NCBI GenBank assembly: GCA_947460065.1
Contig: CANHGF010000090.1
Span: 1-8,289 of the forward strand
Direction of reading: 5' to 3'
From: Comamonadaceae bacterium
Lineage (GTDB): Bacteria > Pseudomonadota > Gammaproteobacteria > Burkholderiales > Burkholderiaceae_C
Length of the DNA: 8,289 bases
In this document: positions 966-8,289 of the stretch, in pieces
Numbering within the stretch: position 1 is the stretch's first letter
How the letters are laid out: each line of letters starts with the position of its first letter
Program-made: the position numbers and the translations under genes
The notes under the pieces: model-generated
Told to the model about the DNA's origin: nothing
The model's input: only the letters and a program-made list of their open reading frames with translations
Database searches by the model: none

Positions 966-1799
966 TTGCGCAATTTGAACCAGGAGACCATCACCCAGGC
1001 CGTTATCGCGCGCCTGGCGCAGACGCCGGATGCGCGTCTGAAGGAGCTGATGACCAGCCTGGTGCAGCACCTGCACGCCTTCGCCCGCGAGACGCGGCTG
1101 ACCGAGCCGGAATGGCAGATGGGCATCGAATTTTTGACCGCAGTCGGACAAAAGTGCAGTCCCACGCGCCAGGAGTTCATCCTCTTGTCCGATGTGTTGG
1201 GTTTGTCGACCCTGATGGTGGCGATGAACCATGACAAGCCTGCCGGGTGTACCGAGTCCACCGTGGTCGGGCCTTTTTATGTGGCTGATGCGCCGCGCTT
1301 GCCCGACGGAGCCGACCTGGCCCGTGGCGCGCCGGGCCAGCCCTGCCTGGTGCAAGGCCGGGTTTGCGCCCTCGATGGCGCGTCTGTGGCCGGCGCCGAG
1401 GTGGAGTTTTGGCAGTCTGACGCCGAAGGCCGCTATGACGTGCAGTACGAAGACCTGGACGAGCACCGAGCCCGTGGCGTGCTGAGCAGCGGCAGCGATG
1501 GCCGCTTCGAGCTGCGCACCGTGCTGGCCCTGCCTTATCCGGTGCCGGTCGATGGGCCGGTTGGGCAACTGCTGGGTGCCACTGGCGGCCATCCCTGGCG
1601 GCCGGCGCACATGCATTTCAAGATCAGTGCGCCCGGCTATGAGCCGCTGACCACCCATGTCTACCGGCAGGACGATCCTTATCTGGACAGCGATGCGGTC
1701 TACGGCGTGCGGCAGTCGCTGATTGCGCCCTGGGTAGACGACGGCCAGGGAATGCACCGGATTGAGTTTGATTTTGTGCTTCAGCGGAGAGCCCTGTGA
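966..1799 (+). CDS. Intradiol ring-cleavage dioxygenase, hydroxyquinol 1,2-dioxygenase type
   Basis: Non-haem Fe(III) enzyme that opens a catecholic ring between the two hydroxyls; 277 residues, typical for the family. The N-terminal helical linker/dimer domain (about 1-100) precedes the beta-sandwich catalytic domain. The expected iron ligands are all present: Tyr157 (GRYDVQ), Tyr191 (YPVPVDGPVG), His215 and His217 (RPAHMHF), with the active-site Arg212. The YPVP.DGPVG and HPWRPAH segments and the VVGPF loop (100-104) are typical of hydroxyquinol or 6-chlorohydroxyquinol 1,2-dioxygenases rather than catechol dioxygenases; the product from hydroxyquinol would be 3-hydroxymuconate, the enol of maleylacetate. 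TTG start chosen from the ribosome binding site. First gene of the operon, with its stop overlapping the next start by 4 bases. Pyrogallol or a substituted triol remains a possible substrate. Confidence 0.88.
   Translation: MRNLNQETITQAVIARLAQTPDARLKELMTSLVQHLHAFARETRLTEPEWQMGIEFLTAVGQKCSPTRQEFILLSDVLGLSTLMVAMNHDKPAGCTESTVVGPFYVADAPRLPDGADLARGAPGQPCLVQGRVCALDGASVAGAEVEFWQSDAEGRYDVQYEDLDEHRARGVLSSGSDGRFELRTVLALPYPVPVDGPVGQLLGATGGHPWRPAHMHFKISAPGYEPLTTHVYRQDDPYLDSDAVYGVRQSLIAPWVDDGQGMHRIEFDFVLQRRAL
1786..1791 (+). promoter_or_regulatory. Ribosome binding site for the overlapping GTG start
   Basis: GGAGAG ends 4 bases before GTG at 1796, inside the last codons of the dioxygenase gene. It supports the GTG start and translational coupling through the shared GTGA. 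Confidence 0.6.
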
Positions 1800-2101
1800 T
1801 TTTCACCTTCATCTTGATTGACAAGCCCGATACCCAGGCGCTGCGCCATCGACTGCGTCCTGAGCACAAGGCTTACTTGGGCGAGGTGGGGCAGCGCATT
1901 GCCTTTGCAGGCCCCTTGGTTGCCGATGACGGGCAGACCATGCTGGGCAGCTTGTTGGCCATCGACTTTGAATCGCGCGACGCAGCCCACGCTTGGCTGG
2001 CCGACGAGCCCTTTACCCGCGCGGGCCTGTACGGCAGCACCACCGTTCATGCCTTTGTGAACCTGTGGCCGCAAAGCGCTGGCTTTGCGCCCCAGGTTTG
2101 A
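1796..2101 (+). CDS. YciI-like protein (ferredoxin-like alpha/beta barrel)
   Basis: Small soluble protein of 101 residues, the usual size for YciI-like proteins. Seen: the N-terminal strand IFTFILIDK, EHKAYL with His24, GPLVADDG with Asp44/Asp45, then a GSLLAIDFESRDAA segment and ADEPFTRAGLY, a typical YciI ending motif. A conserved His-Asp pair forms the presumed active site in this family. The best described catabolic member is TftG of 2,4,5-trichlorophenoxyacetate breakdown, which dehydrochlorinates 5-chlorohydroxyquinol ahead of the hydroxyquinol dioxygenase TftH; the direct coupling to a hydroxyquinol-type dioxygenase here (start overlaps its stop by 4 bases) makes a comparable role attractive. 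A muconolactone-isomerase-like role is an alternative, as that enzyme has a related fold. The family is certain, the reaction is inference. Confidence 0.88.
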   Translation: MIFTFILIDKPDTQALRHRLRPEHKAYLGEVGQRIAFAGPLVADDGQTMLGSLLAIDFESRDAAHAWLADEPFTRAGLYGSTTVHAFVNLWPQSAGFAPQV

Positions 2102-2104
2102 ACC

Positions 2105-2110
2105 GGAGAA
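2105..2110 (+). promoter_or_regulatory. Ribosome binding site deciding a TTG start
   Basis: GGAGAA lies 4 bases before TTG at 2115 (GGAG core 6 bases away). It selects the TTG that begins directly with the conserved IKHIVMW strand over an upstream in-frame start at 2085, which would overlap the YciI gene and add ten unrelated residues. Confidence 0.6.
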
Positions 2111-2114
2111 GCGC

Positions 2115-2423
2115 TTGATCAAGCACATCGTCATGTGGAATTTGCGCGGCGACACGGACCAGGCCAAGGCCCGCGCCATCGAGCTGCTCAAACGCAGCTT
2201 CGAGTCTTTGCGCGGGCGCATTCCGGGTCTGCTGCATCTGGAAATCGGGGTCGATTCCAGCCGCATCGACTACGCCTGTGACGTGGTGCTTTACTCGGAG
2301 TTCGAGTCGCAGGCTGCGCTCGATGCCTACGCGCTACACCCCGAGCACCTGCGGGTCAAACAAGAGTTGGCCGACCTGCGCATTGCGCGTCACCAGGTCG
2401 ATTACCGGGTCGAGCCGGTCTGA
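2115..2423 (+). CDS. Dabb-domain (stress-responsive alpha/beta barrel) protein
   Basis: Predicted 102-residue cytoplasmic protein. The opening strand IKHIVMWNL, the IPGLLHLEIGVD segment (36-47), DVVLYSEFES (56-65) and YALHPEHLRVK (72-82) are the conserved landmarks of the Dabb family (dimeric alpha/beta barrel). Members include plant stress proteins, polyketide and olivetolic acid cyclases, and many uncharacterised proteins in aromatic catabolic operons. No membrane segment or signal peptide is present. It sits 13 bases after the YciI gene and 18 before the NTF2-like gene, so it is very probably co-translated with them. It may be an isomerase or cyclase acting on a ring-cleavage product, or bind an unstable phenolic; no reaction can be assigned from sequence. 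Confidence 0.88.
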   Translation: MIKHIVMWNLRGDTDQAKARAIELLKRSFESLRGRIPGLLHLEIGVDSSRIDYACDVVLYSEFESQAALDAYALHPEHLRVKQELADLRIARHQVDYRVEPV

Positions 2424-2441
2424 ATTTAAGGAGTCACAGCA

Positions 2442-3059
2442 ATGGATCAAGCGATGCACGATGAATTGGAAATCCGCCAGATGGTCGAGCGTTGGGCCGT
2501 CTGGCGCGATGCCGGCGACTGGGACCGTTTTGCCACCGTCTGGCACCCCGAGGGGGTGATGATGGCGACCTGGTTTCAGGGGCCGTTCAAGGACTTCATC
2601 CGCGTCACCCAGGAGGGCTGGGCCAAGGGGGTGAGCATTTTGCATTTCCTGGGCGGCAGCGCAGTCGAGGTGGTGGGTGACCGGGCAATCGCCCAGACCA
2701 AGATGACGATTTCCCAGCGTGGTATGGTCGAGGGCGCTGATGGCCCGGTCCTGTGCGACGTGGTGTGTACCGGCCGCTTTTATGATTTTGTGAGCCGTCA
2801 CGAAGGACGCTGGAAGCTGTTGCACCGTCAGCCCATCTACGAAAAAGACCGCATAGACCCGGTCGATCCGGTGGCGTTGCTCAAGCTCGATCAGCAGGCC
2901 CTGGCCAGCTACCCCGAGGGCTATCGCCACCTGGCCTACATCCAGACCCGCATTGGCTACAAGGTCAAGATGGACATGCCCATGCTCAAAGGCTCCGGGG
3001 TGCAGAATCTTTATCAACGCGGCAGCCGCTGGCTGGCCGGCGGTGCGCTCGAGCGCTGA
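2442..3059 (+). CDS. NTF2-like / SnoaL-like fold protein
   Basis: Predicted soluble protein of 205 residues starting at an ATG 8 bases after AAGGAG (2428-2433). Residues 6-135 match the SnoaL/NTF2-like cone: the opening helix ELEIRQMVERWAVWRDAGDW, then ATVWHPEGVM (31-40), ILHFLGG (66-72), TKMTISQR and the closing strand GRWKLLHRQPIYEKD. Asp23 and His68 occupy the approximate places of the Asp-His dyad of LinA dehydrochlorinase and scytalone dehydratase, so a dehydratase, dehydrohalogenase or isomerase role is possible. Residues 140-205 are a tail beyond the usual domain, with repeated aromatic and basic residues and no clear motif. No signal peptide, so it acts in the cytoplasm. The family is confident, the dyad is aligned by eye, and the substrate is unknown. 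Confidence 0.85.
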   Translation: MDQAMHDELEIRQMVERWAVWRDAGDWDRFATVWHPEGVMMATWFQGPFKDFIRVTQEGWAKGVSILHFLGGSAVEVVGDRAIAQTKMTISQRGMVEGADGPVLCDVVCTGRFYDFVSRHEGRWKLLHRQPIYEKDRIDPVDPVALLKLDQQALASYPEGYRHLAYIQTRIGYKVKMDMPMLKGSGVQNLYQRGSRWLAGGALER

Positions 3060-3090
3060 AGCAGACTCTGTTTATCAGGAGACAAAAATC

Positions 3091-4068
3091 ATGAACAAGC
3101 GATCTTTTAGTAAGGCAGTGGTCGTCGGCTGTTTCGGCGCCATGAGCGGCGGGCTCGCATGGGCCCAAGCTTTTCCGAGCAAGCCCTTGCGTGTGGTGGT
3201 GCCTCAACCGCCCGGCGGAGGTTTTGATGTGGTGGGCCGCTTGCTGGCTGACCGCCTGGGCAAGGCCATGGGCCAAAGCGCGGTGGTGGAAAACCGGCCC
3301 GGCTCGGGCACCCTGGTGGGCACCGACCTGGTGGCCAAGGCGCCGCCCGATGGCTACACGCTGCTGGTTGGCTCGGTCTCCAATCTGGCGCTCAATCCGG
3401 GCCTGTACCCCAACATTCCCTACGACAGCCTGCGCGACTTTGAGCCGGTGGGTTTGGCAGTGGCCTACAGCTACACCTTGGTTGCGCGCAAGGATCTGCC
3501 CTTTGCCAATTTGCGCGAACTCATTGCCTACGCCAAGGCCAATCCGAAGAAGCTGACCTACGCCTCCGGCGGCAGTGGCTCGGGCCAGCATGTGCTGGCT
3601 GCAGCCCTGTGGAACCTGGCCGGTGTCGAGGCGGTGCATGTGCCCTACCGGGGTGCTCAGGCGGCCTATCAGGACCTTCTGGGCGGTCGTGTCGACGTGT
3701 TCTTCGATCTTTCGCCGACCGCAAGGCCGCAGGTCGAATCTGGCAATCTGCGGGCCCTGGTGGTCTCGGGCAGCACCCGCTTGCCCTTTCACCCCGAAGT
3801 CCCCACGATTCTTGAAACCGGCGTGGCCAACCTGGATCTAGAGTCCTGGTTCGGCCTGTTCGTGCCGAGCAAGACACCGGCCGATGTGCAGGAGCGCTTG
3901 CGCAGTGAACTGGCGCGCATCATTGCCGCGCCCGACCTGGTGGAAACTTTCCGCAAGGCTGGCGGCAAGCCGCTGGCGCTCAGCGCCGAGCAGGCGCGCT
4001 CGCTGGTCAAGCGCGATGTCGACCGCTGGTCCAAGATCACCCGCGACCTGGGCATCAAGGCCGAGTGA
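3091..4068 (+). CDS. Bug/TctC-family periplasmic solute receptor (first copy)
   Basis: Secreted binding protein of 325 residues, the usual Bug length. A Sec signal peptide (basic MNKR, then a hydrophobic stretch) ends at AWA with predicted cleavage before Gln26. Family landmarks follow: FPSKPLRVVVP, the ligand loop GGGFDVVGR with Asp46, VVENRPGSG, DGYTLL, the HVPYRGAQAAYQDLLGG segment, and EVPTILETG. Bug proteins bind carboxylates such as tricarboxylates, dicarboxylates and aromatic acids for tripartite TctABC uptake, and some act as sensors. AGGAGA (3077-3082) lies 8 bases before the ATG. No TctA or TctB membrane gene is in the window, so it may be an orphan receptor using membrane subunits encoded elsewhere. 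Its place after three small catabolic genes suggests it binds the pathway's substrate acid. Confidence 0.95.
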   Translation: MNKRSFSKAVVVGCFGAMSGGLAWAQAFPSKPLRVVVPQPPGGGFDVVGRLLADRLGKAMGQSAVVENRPGSGTLVGTDLVAKAPPDGYTLLVGSVSNLALNPGLYPNIPYDSLRDFEPVGLAVAYSYTLVARKDLPFANLRELIAYAKANPKKLTYASGGSGSGQHVLAAALWNLAGVEAVHVPYRGAQAAYQDLLGGRVDVFFDLSPTARPQVESGNLRALVVSGSTRLPFHPEVPTILETGVANLDLESWFGLFVPSKTPADVQERLRSELARIIAAPDLVETFRKAGGKPLALSAEQARSLVKRDVDRWSKITRDLGIKAE

Positions 4069-4151
4069 GTTTCTTTCGCTGACCGATACTCCCCAGGTTT
4101 TTCTGCGGCCGCTAAGCTGCTTGTTTTTTAACTTTTAGGAATTGAACTGCC

Positions 4152-4736
4152 ATGCCCATCTCTGACGCCAGCCTCGACCAGCTTTTCCGCCAGGCCCGCA
4201 CCGCCAACGGCTTTACTGACAAGCCGGTTCCCGCCGACCTGCTCAAGAAGGTTTACGAGCTGGCCTGCATGGCGCCGACCTCGATGAACACCCAGCCCAC
4301 TCGCTATGTGTTCCTGACCACGCCGCAAGCTCGCGAGCGCATCATTGGGGCGCTGTCACCGACCAATGTGGACAAGACCCGCTCGGCACCGGTTTGCGTG
4401 ATCGTTGCAACCGACACCCGTTTTTATGAGCACATGCCCAAGATTTGGCACCGGCCCGAAGCGCAGGCGATGTTCGAGGGCAATCCAGCCATGGCCTCTG
4501 CCACCGCAACCCGTAACAGTACCCTGGGTGGCGCCTATTTCATCATGGCGGCTCGCTCTCTGGATCTCGCTTGCGGCCCGATGAGCGGCGTCGATCTGGC
4601 CAAGGTCAATGCCGAGTTTTTCCCTGACGGTCGCTATCAGGCCAATTTCCTGATCAACCTGGGTTACATGGACGAGAGCAAGCTGTTTGAGCGTAATCCG
4701 CGCTTGAGCTTCGAGCAGGCCTGCCAGGTCCTCTGA
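4152..4736 (+). CDS. HadB/RutE-family nitroreductase-fold flavoprotein
   Basis: FMN-dependent NAD(P)H oxidoreductase of 194 residues, closely resembling E. coli RutE (about 196) along its whole length: ARTANGF (15-21), APTSMNTQPTR (41-51, FMN site), SAPVCVIVATDTRFYE (78-93), RNS (121-123), GPMSGVD (142-148), and the end LINLGYMDESKLFERNPRLS. RutE reduces malonic semialdehyde in uracil breakdown; relatives HadB/TcpB sit beside 6-chlorohydroxyquinol dioxygenases and TcpB acts as a quinone reductase. With a hydroxyquinol-type dioxygenase in the same operon and no rut genes visible, reduction of hydroxybenzoquinone to hydroxyquinol is the more likely role. The upstream gap of 83 bases is the largest in the operon; the AGGA at 4137-4140 is 11 bases before the ATG, rather far, so translation may be modest. 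Family confident, substrate inferred. Confidence 0.9.
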   Translation: MPISDASLDQLFRQARTANGFTDKPVPADLLKKVYELACMAPTSMNTQPTRYVFLTTPQARERIIGALSPTNVDKTRSAPVCVIVATDTRFYEHMPKIWHRPEAQAMFEGNPAMASATATRNSTLGGAYFIMAARSLDLACGPMSGVDLAKVNAEFFPDGRYQANFLINLGYMDESKLFERNPRLSFEQACQVL

Positions 4737-4781
4737 GGCCGTCAAACCGGTCGCAGCTAGTCAGCGCAATTCATCATCAAC

Positions 4782-4788
4782 GGGAGGT
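4782..4788 (+). promoter_or_regulatory. Strong ribosome binding site for a GTG start
   Basis: GGGAGGT, the most complete Shine-Dalgarno sequence in the window, has its GGAGG core 6 bases before GTG at 4794. It fixes that start. Confidence 0.65.
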
Positions 4789-4793
4789 AAGAA

Positions 4794-5591
4794 GTGAAAA
4801 TCGGAAAAAACATTGTTCCCCACACCGCCATCAGCACATCCAACGAGCAGCGCATCGTGGTGCGGGGGCTGGACTTGTCGCGTGATCTGATCGGCAAGGT
4901 CAATTTCGGCGATTACTTTTTCCTCCTGCTGACTGGGCAGATGCCCGATGCGGCGACCAGCGCGCTGGTCAACGCCACCATGGTGGCCATCGCCGAGCAT
5001 GGCTTGGTGCCCAGCAACCAGGCCGCGCGCATGACTTTGGCTGCAGCCCCCGATGCGATGCAAGGCGCGGTCGCCGCTGGCATTCTGGGCGCCGGTTCGG
5101 TAGTGCTTGGCGCTTCGGAGACTGCCGGCAAGCTGTTCCTGCGGGTCGCAGCGGAGGCGGCTGCCCATCACGGCGGTGACCTCAAGGCGGCCGCCAAGGC
5201 GGTGGTTACCGACCTTCGCGCGAACAAGCAGATCGTGCCCGGCTACGGTCACCCCGAACACAAGACAGCCGATCCGAGGGTGGGTGCCTTGTTCAATCTG
5301 TCGGCCCAGGTCGGTGGCGGCCAGAAATATGTGGAACTGGCTCGCATCATCGAGTCGGTGATCCCCGAGGTCACTGGCAGGGAGCTGGCCATGAACGTCT
5401 CCGGGGCCATCCCGGCGGTGCTGATGGGCGTCAATTTCCCGGTGACCGCGCTCAAGGGCGTGCCGATGCTCGCGCGCGTGGCCAGTTTGATTGCTCACCT
5501 CAATGAAGAGATGGCTGACCCCATCGGTTTTGCACTGGCCAACCATGCGGTGTCCCAGCAGCAATACACCGGCACCCCTGTAAAGGATTGA
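4794..5591 (+). CDS. Citryl-CoA-lyase-like protein (short citrate-synthase fold)
   Basis: Predicted 265-residue member of the citrate synthase superfamily, far shorter than housekeeping citrate synthase (about 430) and close to citryl-CoA lyase size. Seen: EHGLVPSNQAAR with His69 (first catalytic His position), the CoA-loop-like GAGSVVLGA (99-107), GYGHPEHKTADPR with His153 and the DPR arginine, then MNVSGAIPAVLMG (200-212). In this last motif the family normally has NVD with the catalytic aspartate; here residue 203 is Ser (codon tcc). Citryl-CoA lyases cleave a 3-hydroxy-3-carboxyacyl-CoA to acetyl-CoA and a 2-oxoacid, or run the reverse. Its start follows a strong ribosome binding site, and the CoA-transferase gene begins 2 bases after its stop, suggesting the two act in sequence on one CoA thioester. 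The exact substrate is unknown and the serine makes the standard mechanism uncertain. Confidence 0.85.
   Translation: MKIGKNIVPHTAISTSNEQRIVVRGLDLSRDLIGKVNFGDYFFLLLTGQMPDAATSALVNATMVAIAEHGLVPSNQAARMTLAAAPDAMQGAVAAGILGAGSVVLGASETAGKLFLRVAAEAAAHHGGDLKAAAKAVVTDLRANKQIVPGYGHPEHKTADPRVGALFNLSAQVGGGQKYVELARIIESVIPEVTGRELAMNVSGAIPAVLMGVNFPVTALKGVPMLARVASLIAHLNEEMADPIGFALANHAVSQQQYTGTPVKD
5583..5587 (+). promoter_or_regulatory. Ribosome binding site deciding the CoA-transferase start
   Basis: AAGGA lies 6 bases before ATG at 5594 and directly abuts an alternative in-frame TTG at 5588, which is therefore unlikely to be used. It lies within the last codons of the lyase gene. Confidence 0.55.
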
Positions 5592-5593
5592 AC

Positions 5594-6739
5594 ATGGTTC
5601 AGGTACTCAAAGACATCAAGGTCGTCGAGCACGGCACCTTCATCACCGGCCCCTTTGCGGGCATGATGCTGGCGGATCTGGGCGCCGATGTGGTCAAGGT
5701 CGAACTGCCTGGCACCGGCGACCCCTTCCGGGCCTACCGGGGCGAGCTCTACAGCCCGCACTTTCAATCGGTCAACCGCAACAAGCGCTCGATCACCCTC
5801 AACACCAAGGACGCGGCCGAGTTGGCGCGCTTTGACGAGATGATCGCGCAGGCTGATGTCTACATCCAGAATTTCCGCCCGGGTGTGGCAGAAAAGCTCG
5901 GCTCTGGCTATGAGCGTCTGAAAAAAATCAATCCGCGCCTGATTTACTGTGCCATCAGCGGCTTTGGCCGTGACGGCCCTTACCGCGACCGGCCCAGTTA
6001 TGACTCGGTGGCGCAGGCCTACAGCGGCTTTCTCGGCTTGCTGGTCAACCCCAACGACCCGCGGGTGGTGGGACCGGCCCTGGCCGATGCGATGACCGGT
6101 TTTTACTCGGCCTACGGCATCCTTGGCGCTTTGCATGAGCGCAACGTCTCCGGCCAAGGCCGTCTGGTTGAGGTCTCGATGATCGAGGCGATGACGCATT
6201 TCAACCTCGATGCCTTCACCCACCTGTTCACCATCGGGCAGGTAGTCGATCCCTTCAGCCGGGCGCGCGTTTCTCAGTCCTATGTTCTCGAGTGCTCGGA
6301 CGGCAAGTGGGTGGCGCTTCACATGTCCTCGCCGCCCAAGTTCTGGGAAGGCCTGGCCAAGGCCATGGAAAAGCCGGACATCTTCGAGGATCCGCGCTTT
6401 GCCACCCGCGAAGCGCGCACCGACAACCAGGAGGCGATGATTGAGGTGCTGCAGGCGGTGTTCAAGCACCGGACCCGCACCGAATGGTGCAACCGCCTGC
6501 TGGCCGAGGATGTGCCGCACGCGCCGATGTACAACTCGGCCGAGGTGCCCGAAGACCCGCAGATCAAGCATCTGCAGATGTTTGTCGAGGCACCCTCGCC
6601 AGTCAAAGGCATGTTCAAGACGGTGCGTTCACCGGTCACCTATGACGGCGAGCGTCCGCTCGACGTGACCGCTCCGCCGCTGCTGGGCCAGCACAATGAA
6701 GAGTTCAAGACGGGCTGGCCAGCGCGGCCGGCAAAGTGA
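5594..6739 (+). CDS. Class III (CaiB/BaiF family) CoA-transferase
   Basis: Moves CoA between carboxylic acids; 381 residues, within the family range. The N-terminal Rossmann-like part contains the signature GTFITGPFAGMMLADLGADV (14-33) followed by VKVE, then NRNKRSI (61-67), ADVYIQNFRPG (87-97) and YCAISGFGRDGPY (118-130). Asp165 in GPALADAMTGFYSAYG is at the place of the catalytic aspartate of formyl-CoA transferase (Asp169), which forms the aspartyl-CoA anhydride/thioester intermediate. The C-terminal part ends with VPHAPMYNSAEVPEDPQ and LGQHNEE, both typical. Members use oxalate, carnitine, succinate/benzylsuccinate, mesaconate, itaconate and similar acids, so the family alone does not give the substrate. 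Tight linkage to the citryl-CoA-lyase-like gene suggests activation of a dicarboxylic or hydroxy acid for cleavage. Confidence 0.93.
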   Translation: MVQVLKDIKVVEHGTFITGPFAGMMLADLGADVVKVELPGTGDPFRAYRGELYSPHFQSVNRNKRSITLNTKDAAELARFDEMIAQADVYIQNFRPGVAEKLGSGYERLKKINPRLIYCAISGFGRDGPYRDRPSYDSVAQAYSGFLGLLVNPNDPRVVGPALADAMTGFYSAYGILGALHERNVSGQGRLVEVSMIEAMTHFNLDAFTHLFTIGQVVDPFSRARVSQSYVLECSDGKWVALHMSSPPKFWEGLAKAMEKPDIFEDPRFATREARTDNQEAMIEVLQAVFKHRTRTEWCNRLLAEDVPHAPMYNSAEVPEDPQIKHLQMFVEAPSPVKGMFKTVRSPVTYDGERPLDVTAPPLLGQHNEEFKTGWPARPAK

Positions 6740-6741
6740 GC

Positions 6742-6745
6742 AGGA
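6742..6745 (+). promoter_or_regulatory. Short ribosome binding site before two adjacent ATGs
   Basis: AGGA is 4 bases before ATG at 6750 and 7 before the next in-frame ATG at 6753. The second has the more usual spacing; the choice changes the protein by one residue. Confidence 0.4.
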
Positions 6746-6752
6746 CCGCATG

Positions 6753-7727
6753 ATGGCGCATTCGTCTCCACGCAGAACTGCTCTGGCCGTTCTGGCCCTG
6801 GCGCTGGCCGCCGGGCTTGTTCAGGCACAGGACTTTCCTACCAAGCCGATCCGCATGGTGGTGCCTTTTGGCGCTGGCACCACCACCGACATCGTCGGCC
6901 GCATCATGGCCGAAGGCATGTCGCGCGCATTGGGACAAGCCATCGTGGTGGAAAACCGGGCGGGGGCGGGCGGCGGCATAGGCTCTGAGCAGGTGGCCAA
7001 ATCGCCCGCTGACGGGTACACCTTGCTGATGGGTACGGTCGGCACCCATGCGATCAATGCCACGCTTTATAAAAAGCTGCCCTATGACCCGCAGCGCGAC
7101 TTCGCGCCGGTGGCCTTCCCGGGCTACACCCCGACCTTGCTGGTGGTGCCAGCCAGCTCGCCGCTCAAGTCGCTCAAGGACCTGTCCGATCTGGCCCGCA
7201 AACCTGGCGCCAATGTCAGCTTTGCCTCCGCAGGCAACGGCACCTCGGGGCATCTGGCCGGCGAGTTGCTCAAGGCCAGAGTCGGCGGCGAGATGACCCA
7301 TGTGCCTTACAAGGAGGGCGGCCTGGCGCTGTCCGATGTGATGAGCGCACAGGTCAATTTCATGTTCTACCACCCTGCCGCGGTGGTGCCCCACATGAAG
7401 AGCGGCAAATTGCGCGCGCTGGCTGCTTCGAGCGCCCGCCGCAGTGCGGCGGTGCCCGAGGTGCCGGCGATCGCTGAATCGGGTTATGACTTTGATCTGG
7501 TGGCCTGGTTCATGCTGTACGCGCCGGCGGCTACGCCCGCGCCGGTGCTGGCCCGTCTGCGTGAGGCAGCCGCCCAGGCCCTGGCCCATCCGGAAATTGC
7601 CGGCAAGCTCAAGGCCCAGGGACTCGAGTCCAGCACCATGCGTGCTGATGAGTTGCCTGCCTTCGGCCGCGCTGAACTGACCAAGTGGGCCGATCTGGTG
7701 CGCCGCTCGGGCGCGCAGGTCGACTGA
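6753..7727 (+). CDS. Bug/TctC-family periplasmic solute receptor (second copy)
   Basis: Secreted carboxylate-binding protein of 324 residues. The Sec signal (SSPRR, then a leucine/alanine-rich core) ends at VQA with predicted cleavage before Gln26. Family features: FPTKPIRMVVP, the ligand loop GAGTTTDIVGR with Asp46, VVENRAGAGGG, DGYTLLMG, MTHVPYKEGGLALSDVM, and EVPAIAESG. The ligand loop (TTTD) differs from the GGFD loop of the first Bug protein in this operon, and the middle thirds diverge clearly, so the two probably bind different ligands rather than being a recent duplication. It begins 13 bases after the CoA-transferase stop. No TctAB membrane subunits are seen. An in-frame ATG at 6750 would add one methionine. 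Confidence 0.94.
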   Translation: MAHSSPRRTALAVLALALAAGLVQAQDFPTKPIRMVVPFGAGTTTDIVGRIMAEGMSRALGQAIVVENRAGAGGGIGSEQVAKSPADGYTLLMGTVGTHAINATLYKKLPYDPQRDFAPVAFPGYTPTLLVVPASSPLKSLKDLSDLARKPGANVSFASAGNGTSGHLAGELLKARVGGEMTHVPYKEGGLALSDVMSAQVNFMFYHPAAVVPHMKSGKLRALAASSARRSAAVPEVPAIAESGYDFDLVAWFMLYAPAATPAPVLARLREAAAQALAHPEIAGKLKAQGLESSTMRADELPAFGRAELTKWADLVRRSGAQVD

Positions 7728-7779
7728 AATTTACCCAGCTTTTCCCCAATCCCTTTCTCAACCGCAACAGGAGACTCTT

Positions 7780-8289
7780 ATGAAAAAAATCGATAGGCGC
7801 TCGGTACTGGCTGCCACAGCAGCTGGCGCAGCCTTGGCGCTGTCGCAGGGCGTACAGGCCCAGGGCGCGCCGATCCGCATCGGCAGCACGCTGGCCCTGA
7901 CAGGTCCCCTGTCGGCCACCGGCCTGACCCACAAGCTGGTCGGCGACATCTATATCGAACAGATCAATGCCCGTGGCGGTCTGCTCGGACGCAAGGTCGA
8001 ATGGATCGTCAAGGACGATCAATCCAAGCCCGACCTGGCCCGCACCCTCTACGAGCAGCTGATCACCACCGACAAGGTGGACCTGCTGATGGGCCCGTAT
8101 GCCACCGGCGCCATCTTGTCGGCCATGGGCGTGGCCCAGCGCTACAACAAGGTCTTGGTCCATCACACCTTCGGCATTCCCTCGCTGGCCAAGTACGACA
8201 TGCACTTCCCGGCCTGGTCGCTGGGCCCGACCCCCCAGACCACGGTGCCCAACACTTTGTTCGACATGCTGGCGGCCTCGCCCAAGCCG
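7780..8289 (+). CDS. Liv-type ABC transporter substrate-binding protein (3' end cut by window edge)
   Basis: First 170 codons of a periplasmic binding protein of the branched-chain amino acid/amide family (Peripla_BP_6, LivK-like). The N-terminus MKKIDRRSVLAATAAG has a twin-arginine-like motif and a hydrophobic stretch, with probable cleavage after VQA (27). The mature part begins PIRIGSTLALTGPLSATG (31-48), the family's hallmark first strand and loop, followed by INARGGLLGRKVEW, DDQSKPDLARTLYEQLI and LLMGPYATG. The family is usually about 380-420 residues, so more than half is missing. AGGAG (7769-7773) lies 6 bases before the ATG. In Burkholderiales such proteins next to catabolic genes often bind aromatic acids rather than amino acids; livHMGF-type genes may follow beyond the window. 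The preceding gap of 52 bases shows no terminator, so it is probably in the same transcript. Confidence 0.93.
   Translation, partial: MKKIDRRSVLAATAAGAALALSQGVQAQGAPIRIGSTLALTGPLSATGLTHKLVGDIYIEQINARGGLLGRKVEWIVKDDQSKPDLARTLYEQLITTDKVDLLMGPYATGAILSAMGVAQRYNKVLVHHTFGIPSLAKYDMHFPAWSLGPTPQTTVPNTLFDMLAASPKP

Follow-up and report, generated by a model that had tools for sequence, protein, structure and literature searches.

Gene linkage supports a citryl-CoA-lyase-fold protein and a class III CoA-transferase, found in a hydroxyquinol-type ring-cleavage operon, as conserved partners of an intradiol dioxygenase type

What becomes of an aromatic ring after an intradiol dioxygenase has opened it? In the textbook account, triols whose ring has been cleaved are processed by maleylacetate reductase (MAR) and the 3-oxoadipate route. 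An 8,289-base contig from a Comamonadaceae bacterium (CANHGF010000090.1, assembly GCA_947460065.1; hereafter the window) raises the question of another fate. Behind a hydroxyquinol 1,2-dioxygenase-family enzyme (HQDO1) it carries genes for a citryl-CoA-lyase-fold protein (hereafter the lyase) and a class III CoA-transferase (CoAT3), and the original prediction, made from the sequence, held that this pair stands in place of MAR. Our comparisons support the pair as the conserved partner of one intradiol dioxygenase type, here called IDO2, and reject the replacement of MAR at this locus, since a MAR gene adjoins it in the nearest relative. With moderate confidence, we read the locus as a ring-cleavage operon in which a hydroxyquinol-type dioxygenase is joined to a CoAT3/lyase-fold branch that would likely lead to acetyl-CoA and a shorter acid, beside what is likely an ordinary MAR/3-oxoadipate route.

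We assessed this linkage by searching what appears to be one set of 399 family genomes twice, once with the lyase as query (cut-off E <= 1e-60) and once with the IDO2 protein of genome G022 (genomes are numbered G, loci L, and contigs of the window's bin C). The lyase query matched 26 other genomes, and 24 of the 26 loci had an IDO2-type dioxygenase within 6 kb; of the remaining loci, L167 has a third-type dioxygenase with an AMP-ligase and L166 has no dioxygenase. A CoA-transferase or AMP-ligase gene lay near the lyase at all 26 loci. The IDO2 query matched 31 genomes, which we divided after the fact, at a gap between 1.2e-89 and 2.1e-86, into 27 IDO2-type genomes and four others, the latter having the usual RPAH motif, a MAR gene within the stretch and no lyase. 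In 24 of the 27 IDO2 genomes, representing 13 genera, the lyase gene lay 21 to 3299 bases from IDO2 (fewer than 160 bases in 19), and the accompanying CoA-activating gene was CoAT3 in 23 and an AMP-ligase in one (G555). Loci L135 and L141, of Variovorax paradoxus, carry the triad of dioxygenase, lyase and CoA-transferase. Three IDO2 genomes lacked a lyase at the locus (G618, G534 and G441); in G618, which is 58% complete, the IDO2 stretch ends at a contig edge and no lyase was found elsewhere in the bin.

Two control sets were examined over the same 6 kb. Among distant lyase homologues (L168–L181, 31–59% identical, 14 of 28 such places), none of the 14 had an intradiol dioxygenase in range. 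Among HQDO1 loci outside the window's genus (L007–L050, 44 of 62 loci), 36 of the 44 had MAR and none had a lyase. Taken together, the pair is a supported conserved partner of an intradiol dioxygenase type. This distribution bears on a rival explanation that we consider rather unlikely: that only the ordinary dioxygenase/MAR/PcaIJF pathway acts on the ring, while the pair handles some other acid imported by TctC or Liv systems and merely shares the transcript. The two TctC genes and the Liv genes of the operon suit this rival, whereas the occurrence of the pair beside IDO2 in 13 genera with differing transporters argues against it. So do the small loci L146, L147 and L149, which hold little beyond LysR, CoAT3, IDO2, lyase and TctC genes, and a linked shift in evolutionary rate described below.

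The phylogeny of the dioxygenases set IDO2 apart. In a tree of 112 rows, IDO2 formed one clade of 31 rows (support 100/98), and the pocket signature followed the clade: RPGH with a Trp in all 31 rows, and RPAH without the Trp in 75 of the 76 other non-PDB rows, the single exception being the remote L139. A lyase gene lies within 6 kb of all 31 clade members, a count that is biased because many of these rows were found through the lyase; the IDO2-query search is independent of the lyase. Rows dropped from the tree include the IDO2 of G035, and those of G534 and G441 came in later, outside it; both of the latter carry RPGH, and that of G441 has no Trp.

The HQDO1 of the window falls outside IDO2, in a clade of its genus with the ordinary RPAH motif. 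By alignment its residues Tyr157, Tyr191, His215 and His217 occupy the Fe-ligand columns, a role we take them to keep, and after 1tmx its best matches among solved structures were 8r2x and 3n9t. Both pocket motifs, TVxGPF and RPxH, are present (as TVVGPFYV and WRPAHMHF), with Val where most rows show Phe. By sequence, the pocket belongs to the hydroxyquinol type apart from a single Phe-to-Val change, and HQDO1 likely opens a 1,2,4-triol to maleylacetate. The window pairs lyase and CoAT3 with an HQDO1-type dioxygenase and does not itself hold the IDO2–lyase–CoA-transferase module; in its lineage, the IDO2 query returned only 45–46% matches in G000 (the window's bin) and G013.

MAR absence was defined as no match at E <= 1e-40 anywhere in the genome. 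By this definition, MAR was missing from 10 of 27 lyase-bearing genomes (G013 not counted), and eight of the MAR-less genomes, each at least 99% complete, hold IDO2, lyase and a CoA-activating enzyme (G412, G512, G527, G530, G555, G612, G673 and G687). Since these eight hold no MAR, the module must work there without it. In this wider form, the predicted CoA-transferase/lyase branch for ring-opened acids gains support from gene linkage (24 of 27 IDO2 genomes, 8 of the 24 without MAR), and the local replacement of MAR falls. MAR is also absent from two HQDO1 genomes reported as 100% complete, G025 and G032, whose loci (L117 and L120) hold HQDO1, pcaIJF-family genes and an FAD hydroxylase; another reductase may replace MAR there. 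The FAD hydroxylase gene, not MAR, adjoins LysR in G004, G025 and G032, and a scan of the G004 protein, the only one of the three scanned, indicated no substrate.

The relation of the window to MAR itself was examined in the closest relative, locus L003 (JAIXOM010000059.1, a Comamonadaceae metagenome-assembled genome, G013), whose dioxygenase is 97% identical to that of the window. Here the flank check advised in the original prediction found a MAR gene at 7565–8623 on the + strand, 1.4 kb upstream and beyond the divergent LysR gene. Its best solved match is 3jzd, named an iron-containing alcohol dehydrogenase, followed by the maleylacetate reductases 3hl0 and 3w5s. The genes ahead of MAR encode a dehydrogenase, an AhpD-like protein, a binding protein, a xanthine-dehydrogenase-like molybdenum hydroxylase of two subunits, a TctC protein and an amidohydrolase. 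Beyond the amidohydrolase G013 has a further dehydrogenase and, about 11 kb upstream, pcaI-, pcaJ- and pcaF-family genes; the pcaF product scores 686 bits against an equivalog cut-off of 597, and the CoA-transferase subunits reach subfamily models only (pcaI_scoA and pcaJ_scoB). The claim that the pair occurs instead of MAR at this locus is not supported, and the upstream MAR and pcaIJF-family genes are a point in favour of the ordinary-pathway rival. Because the opposite-strand LysR gene sits between them, MAR lies outside the dioxygenase transcript; what the prediction had named as its own refutation, a MAR gene just outside the window in the same transcript, was thus found in position and not in transcription.

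MAR accompanies the dioxygenase in G013, L004, G033 and G022. In the window's own bin, contig C179 opens with the C-terminal 50 residues of a MAR (90% identical) and continues into an enoyl-CoA hydratase-like gene; this 50-residue end, unlinked to the window, is the only MAR in the bin. Contig C353 spans the stretch from XdhL to the dehydrogenase and matches the L003 island at 94% nucleotide identity over 2250 bases. Given the molybdenum hydroxylase and amidohydrolase genes upstream, the precursor may be N-heterocyclic or amino-substituted. Neither the window nor the set of genes called in L003 includes a monooxygenase. A separate observation concerns the gap between MAR and LysR: a piece of about 60 bases (L003:8687–8746) matches C2, C296, C394 and C147 of G000 at 87–91%, and is by these matches a dispersed intergenic repeat.

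The lyase-fold protein was then compared with enzymes of known structure. A model built from 43 sequences (mean pLDDT 85; under 50 in loop 101–103) found its best fold match in 6hxp, the citryl-CoA lyase of Hydrogenobacter thermophilus (Foldseek TM 0.76/0.79). The fold, a similar length and one conserved His and Arg are shared; identity is 27%, and the window protein differs in its linkage to a dioxygenase and in the replacement of the active-site His and Asp, at whose columns it has Val104 and Ser203. This replacement holds throughout the family, with Val, Ile or Phe in the His column of 58 of 58 rows and Ser or Thr in the Asp column of 57 of 57, one row being gapped there. We take these columns to be the catalytic residues of citrate synthase and citryl-CoA lyase. 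His153, His156 and Arg228 are invariant wherever a row has a letter. In CoAT3, Asp167 aligns with the Asp of the solved relative 9br6 and is presumably the nucleophile of class III CoA-transferases.

These residues bear on a second rival, in which an ordinary citryl-CoA lyase works with a citrate CoA-transferase to break down citrate. The NCBIfam subfamily name and the 6hxp fold match speak for it, whereas the missing His and Asp mean that the label of citryl-CoA lyase should not be transferred to the protein, and linkage to a dioxygenase in 13 genera also argues against citrate. Entries named in the PDB include Asp-to-Ala mutants of ATP-citrate lyase in complex with citryl-CoA or substrates, which fits a required Asp; this Asp is presumably the one replaced in the window's family. 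We rejected this rival on the active-site residues and regard it as very improbable.

The history of the window's lineage was reconstructed from its congeners. IDO2 lies directly between the HadB-type gene and the lyase in G022, G029 and G030, and also in G004 and G005; in the window, G013, L004, G033 and G007 no IDO2 was found between these genes, and the IDO2 search was negative in G000, G007, G013 and G033 (G013 is 100% complete, the others 79–85%). Loss of IDO2 in the window's lineage would be the simpler reading because the order IDO2–lyase–CoAT3 is common outside the genus. We then compared relative rates between the window lineage (G013, L004) and the IDO2-bearing congeners G004, G005 and G022 against outgroup loci (values in per cent). 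The window lineage was farther from the outgroups for the lyase (66–75 v 73–85, three outgroups), CoAT3 (68–75 v 77–85, three) and HQDO1 (56–66 v 62–77, four). It was not farther for SnoaL (84–85 v 82–83, one outgroup), HadB (76–81 v 75–77, one outgroup and 111 residues), MAR (73–75 v 73–78, two) or LysR against two outgroups outside the genus (62–78 v 61–80). In the lyase tree, a branch of 0.49 leads to the window lineage. From the faster change shared by HQDO1, lyase and CoAT3, we infer a change of partner.

Missing IDO2 and faster change are also what a third rival would predict, namely that the pair is a relic of an operon that lost IDO2, its lyase and transferase now decaying. In G007, moreover, the operon has no dioxygenase gene and CoAT3 is divided between two frames. 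Against this, the dN/dS values of lyase and CoAT3 are 0.015 and 0.032 between the window and L003, and 0.056 and 0.068 between the window and L004; by these values both genes are under strong purifying selection within the lineage now. We therefore consider a relic improbable. In G009, a 78% complete bin, IDO2 is broken over two frames and no lyase was found. The frame splits in G007 and G009 may be assembly errors; taken at face value, these two genomes suggest a shared decay of module genes, which we count in favour of a functional link between dioxygenase and pair.

A mechanism can be proposed for the CoAT3/lyase-fold branch. HQDO1 would open a 1,2,4-triol to maleylacetate; CoAT3 would use succinyl-CoA or acetyl-CoA as CoA donor and load the acetate end of the ring-opened diacid; and the lyase-fold enzyme, which keeps one active-site His, would break the bond beta to the thioester in a hydrolytic retro-Claisen or retro-aldol reaction, so that maleylacetyl-CoA would yield acetyl-CoA and maleate. 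On chemical reasoning, a retro-Claisen cleavage of a beta-ketoacyl-CoA would suit the loss of the Asp, because it needs a carbonyl-activating residue and water and no base for the acetyl methyl. After losing IDO2, the window lineage would have coupled lyase and CoAT3 to HQDO1. The strongest form of this proposal is a MAR-independent triol route in which a citrate-synthase-fold enzyme lacking His and Asp splits the CoAT3-made thioester to acetyl-CoA and a C4 acid, the only route in MAR-less Comamonadaceae, rewired from IDO2 to HQDO1 in the window lineage. We hold this form as possible though doubtful; we know of no description of such chemistry for that fold.

Several observations weigh against a CoAT3/lyase-fold branch for the acid made by HQDO1. 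The absence of His and Asp from the whole lyase family is one. G534 and G441, of one genus, have IDO2 without an adjacent lyase or CoAT3; no lyase homologue is present in G441, and G534 has just two, both distant (35–36%). The same two genomes lack MAR, so IDO2 can stand uncoupled from the pair, and MAR and the pair do not simply substitute for each other across genomes; a rule giving each IDO2 genome one or the other was rejected, as these two have neither. Within the window's genus, G035 has an intact IDO2 without lyase and CoA-transferase. Ordinary HQDO1 operons of this genus, in G012, G015 and G024, lack the pair, and in G004 and G005 IDO2, lyase and CoAT3 sit behind their own divergent LysR, resembling a separate unit that need not share control with HQDO1; both facts also favour the ordinary-pathway rival. 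The rate contrast is not perfectly clean, since LysR is farther against two within-genus rows (L110 and L117; 81–84% v 84–96%) and LivK shows a small shift (75–82% v 80–87%), and relaxed constraint or the import of foreign copies could account for it. The altered IDO2 pocket suggests that its substrate is not hydroxyquinol, in which case the pair may never have acted on maleylacetate. A vicinal triol of the gallate or pyrogallol type is a candidate IDO2 substrate, because a ring of this kind can give the same acid by either intradiol or extradiol opening and because an Aminobacter plasmid has a gallate-dioxygenase-like enzyme in the same place.

That plasmid belongs to a set of known systems that share parts of this arrangement. 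The Aminobacter sp. MSH1 and Sinorhizobium sp. B11 plasmid clusters have adjoining citryl-CoA lyase and CoA-transferase genes, but there a LigB-type extradiol dioxygenase opens the ring (nearest solved structure for the Aminobacter enzyme: gallate dioxygenase, 78 bits); the lyase/CoA-transferase module is thus not tied to one kind of cleavage. A Burkholderia glumae plasmid cluster has the triad of dioxygenase, citryl-CoA lyase and CaiB/BaiF CoA-transferase beside a LysR gene. Unlike the window, its dioxygenase is of the IDO2 type, and it adds an MhpA-type hydroxylase and LeuC/LeuD, an aconitase-family hydratase, with no MAR within 6 kb. LeuCD, to whose family a maleate hydratase belongs, is a candidate hydratase for the released acid. 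The classical hydroxyquinol pathway (dioxygenase, MAR, PcaIJ, PcaF) matches in dioxygenase family and Fe ligands and, in G013, in MAR and pcaIJF-family genes within one gene island; it differs in that MAR here lies in a separate unit across LysR and the pair is added to the dioxygenase operon. The HadB/HadC (TcpB/TcpC) chlorophenol operons combine a RutE/HadB-type nitroreductase with a hydroxyquinol-type dioxygenase, as the window does; the window differs in having no monooxygenase gene and in carrying the pair.

Further variants were seen in passing. A core-MetE-like protein recurs in dioxygenase/lyase clusters (L138, L150, L153, L155, L161, L163, L164 and L165); that of L138, the only one scanned, matches PF01717 and is annotated as uroporphyrinogen decarboxylase family, and the protein is possibly a demethylating step. 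L112, L167 and L139 show a further arrangement, a lyase homologue with an AMP-ligase and another intradiol dioxygenase type. The third-type dioxygenases of G000:C5 (L102), G007 (L108) and G033 (L122) have neither a lyase nor a ligase gene beside them across the stretches read.

The window makes up the whole of contig C90, one of 421 in a bin that is 78.8% complete, so gene absence inside it says little. Its features are collected in Table 1. All gene families of the original prediction were recovered at their places and strand between 966 and 6739, again without MAR; its gene list had passed over the internal TctC gene and the downstream TctC and LivK genes. From the dioxygenase onward, the genes are spaced as in one operon: with 2115 taken as the Dabb start, neighbours are separated by -4 to 83 bases. 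Family scans of the 11 main open reading frames of the window found no MAR, ring hydroxylase or decarboxylase. A promoter scan found none, and terminator-like sites were no commoner than in shuffles. Synonymous divergence from L003 is near 0.1 in CoAT3 and jumps to near 0.7 in the downstream TctC and LivK genes (6740–8289), as if this part of the window had been replaced by recombination.

Table 1. Features of the 8,289-base window
Feature	Position	Strand	Evidence and remarks
LysR-type regulator, divergent, cut by contig end	3..797	-	PF03466, PF00126; 98% identical to L003 LysR
HQDO1, hydroxyquinol 1,2-dioxygenase-family intradiol dioxygenase, TTG start	966..1799	+	PF00775+PF04444; best solved match 1tmx, 258 bits
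YciI-domain protein	1796..2101	+	PF03795
Dabb (A/B barrel) protein; start may be 2115	2085..2423	+	PF07876
SnoaL/NTF2-like protein	2442..3059	+	PF13577
TctC/Bug-type solute-binding protein 1	3091..4068	+	PF03401
RutE/HadB-type nitroreductase, possibly quinone reductase	4152..4736	+	NF003768, 263 bits (cut-off 152); nearest solved chain IstO 7vqk
Citryl-CoA-lyase-fold protein	4794..5591	+	PF00285; NF004868, 313 bits (cut-off 193)
CoAT3, class III (CaiB/BaiF) CoA-transferase	5588..6739	+	PF02515, 349 bits
TctC/Bug-type solute-binding protein 2	6753..7727	+	PF03401
LivK-type ABC transporter binding protein, cut by contig end	7780..8289	+	permease and ATPase genes come next in L003

Text searches of an open-licence literature collection gave no paper that joined 'citryl-CoA lyase' with 'hydroxyquinol', with 'intradiol', or with 'ring-cleavage' and 'CoA-transferase'; some of its papers do pair 'citryl-CoA lyase' with 'dioxygenase' and 'aromatic'. 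Within that body of text, a second way to cut the opened ring is apparently undescribed. If the proposed branch is real, the widespread triad of dioxygenase, CoA-transferase and lyase-fold protein, present in genomes that hold no MAR, would be a second way for opened rings to enter central metabolism. A protein family that is named citryl-CoA lyase and lacks the active-site residues of that enzyme would also gain a function. The enzymes of the triad are small and likely soluble, which makes the claim directly testable.

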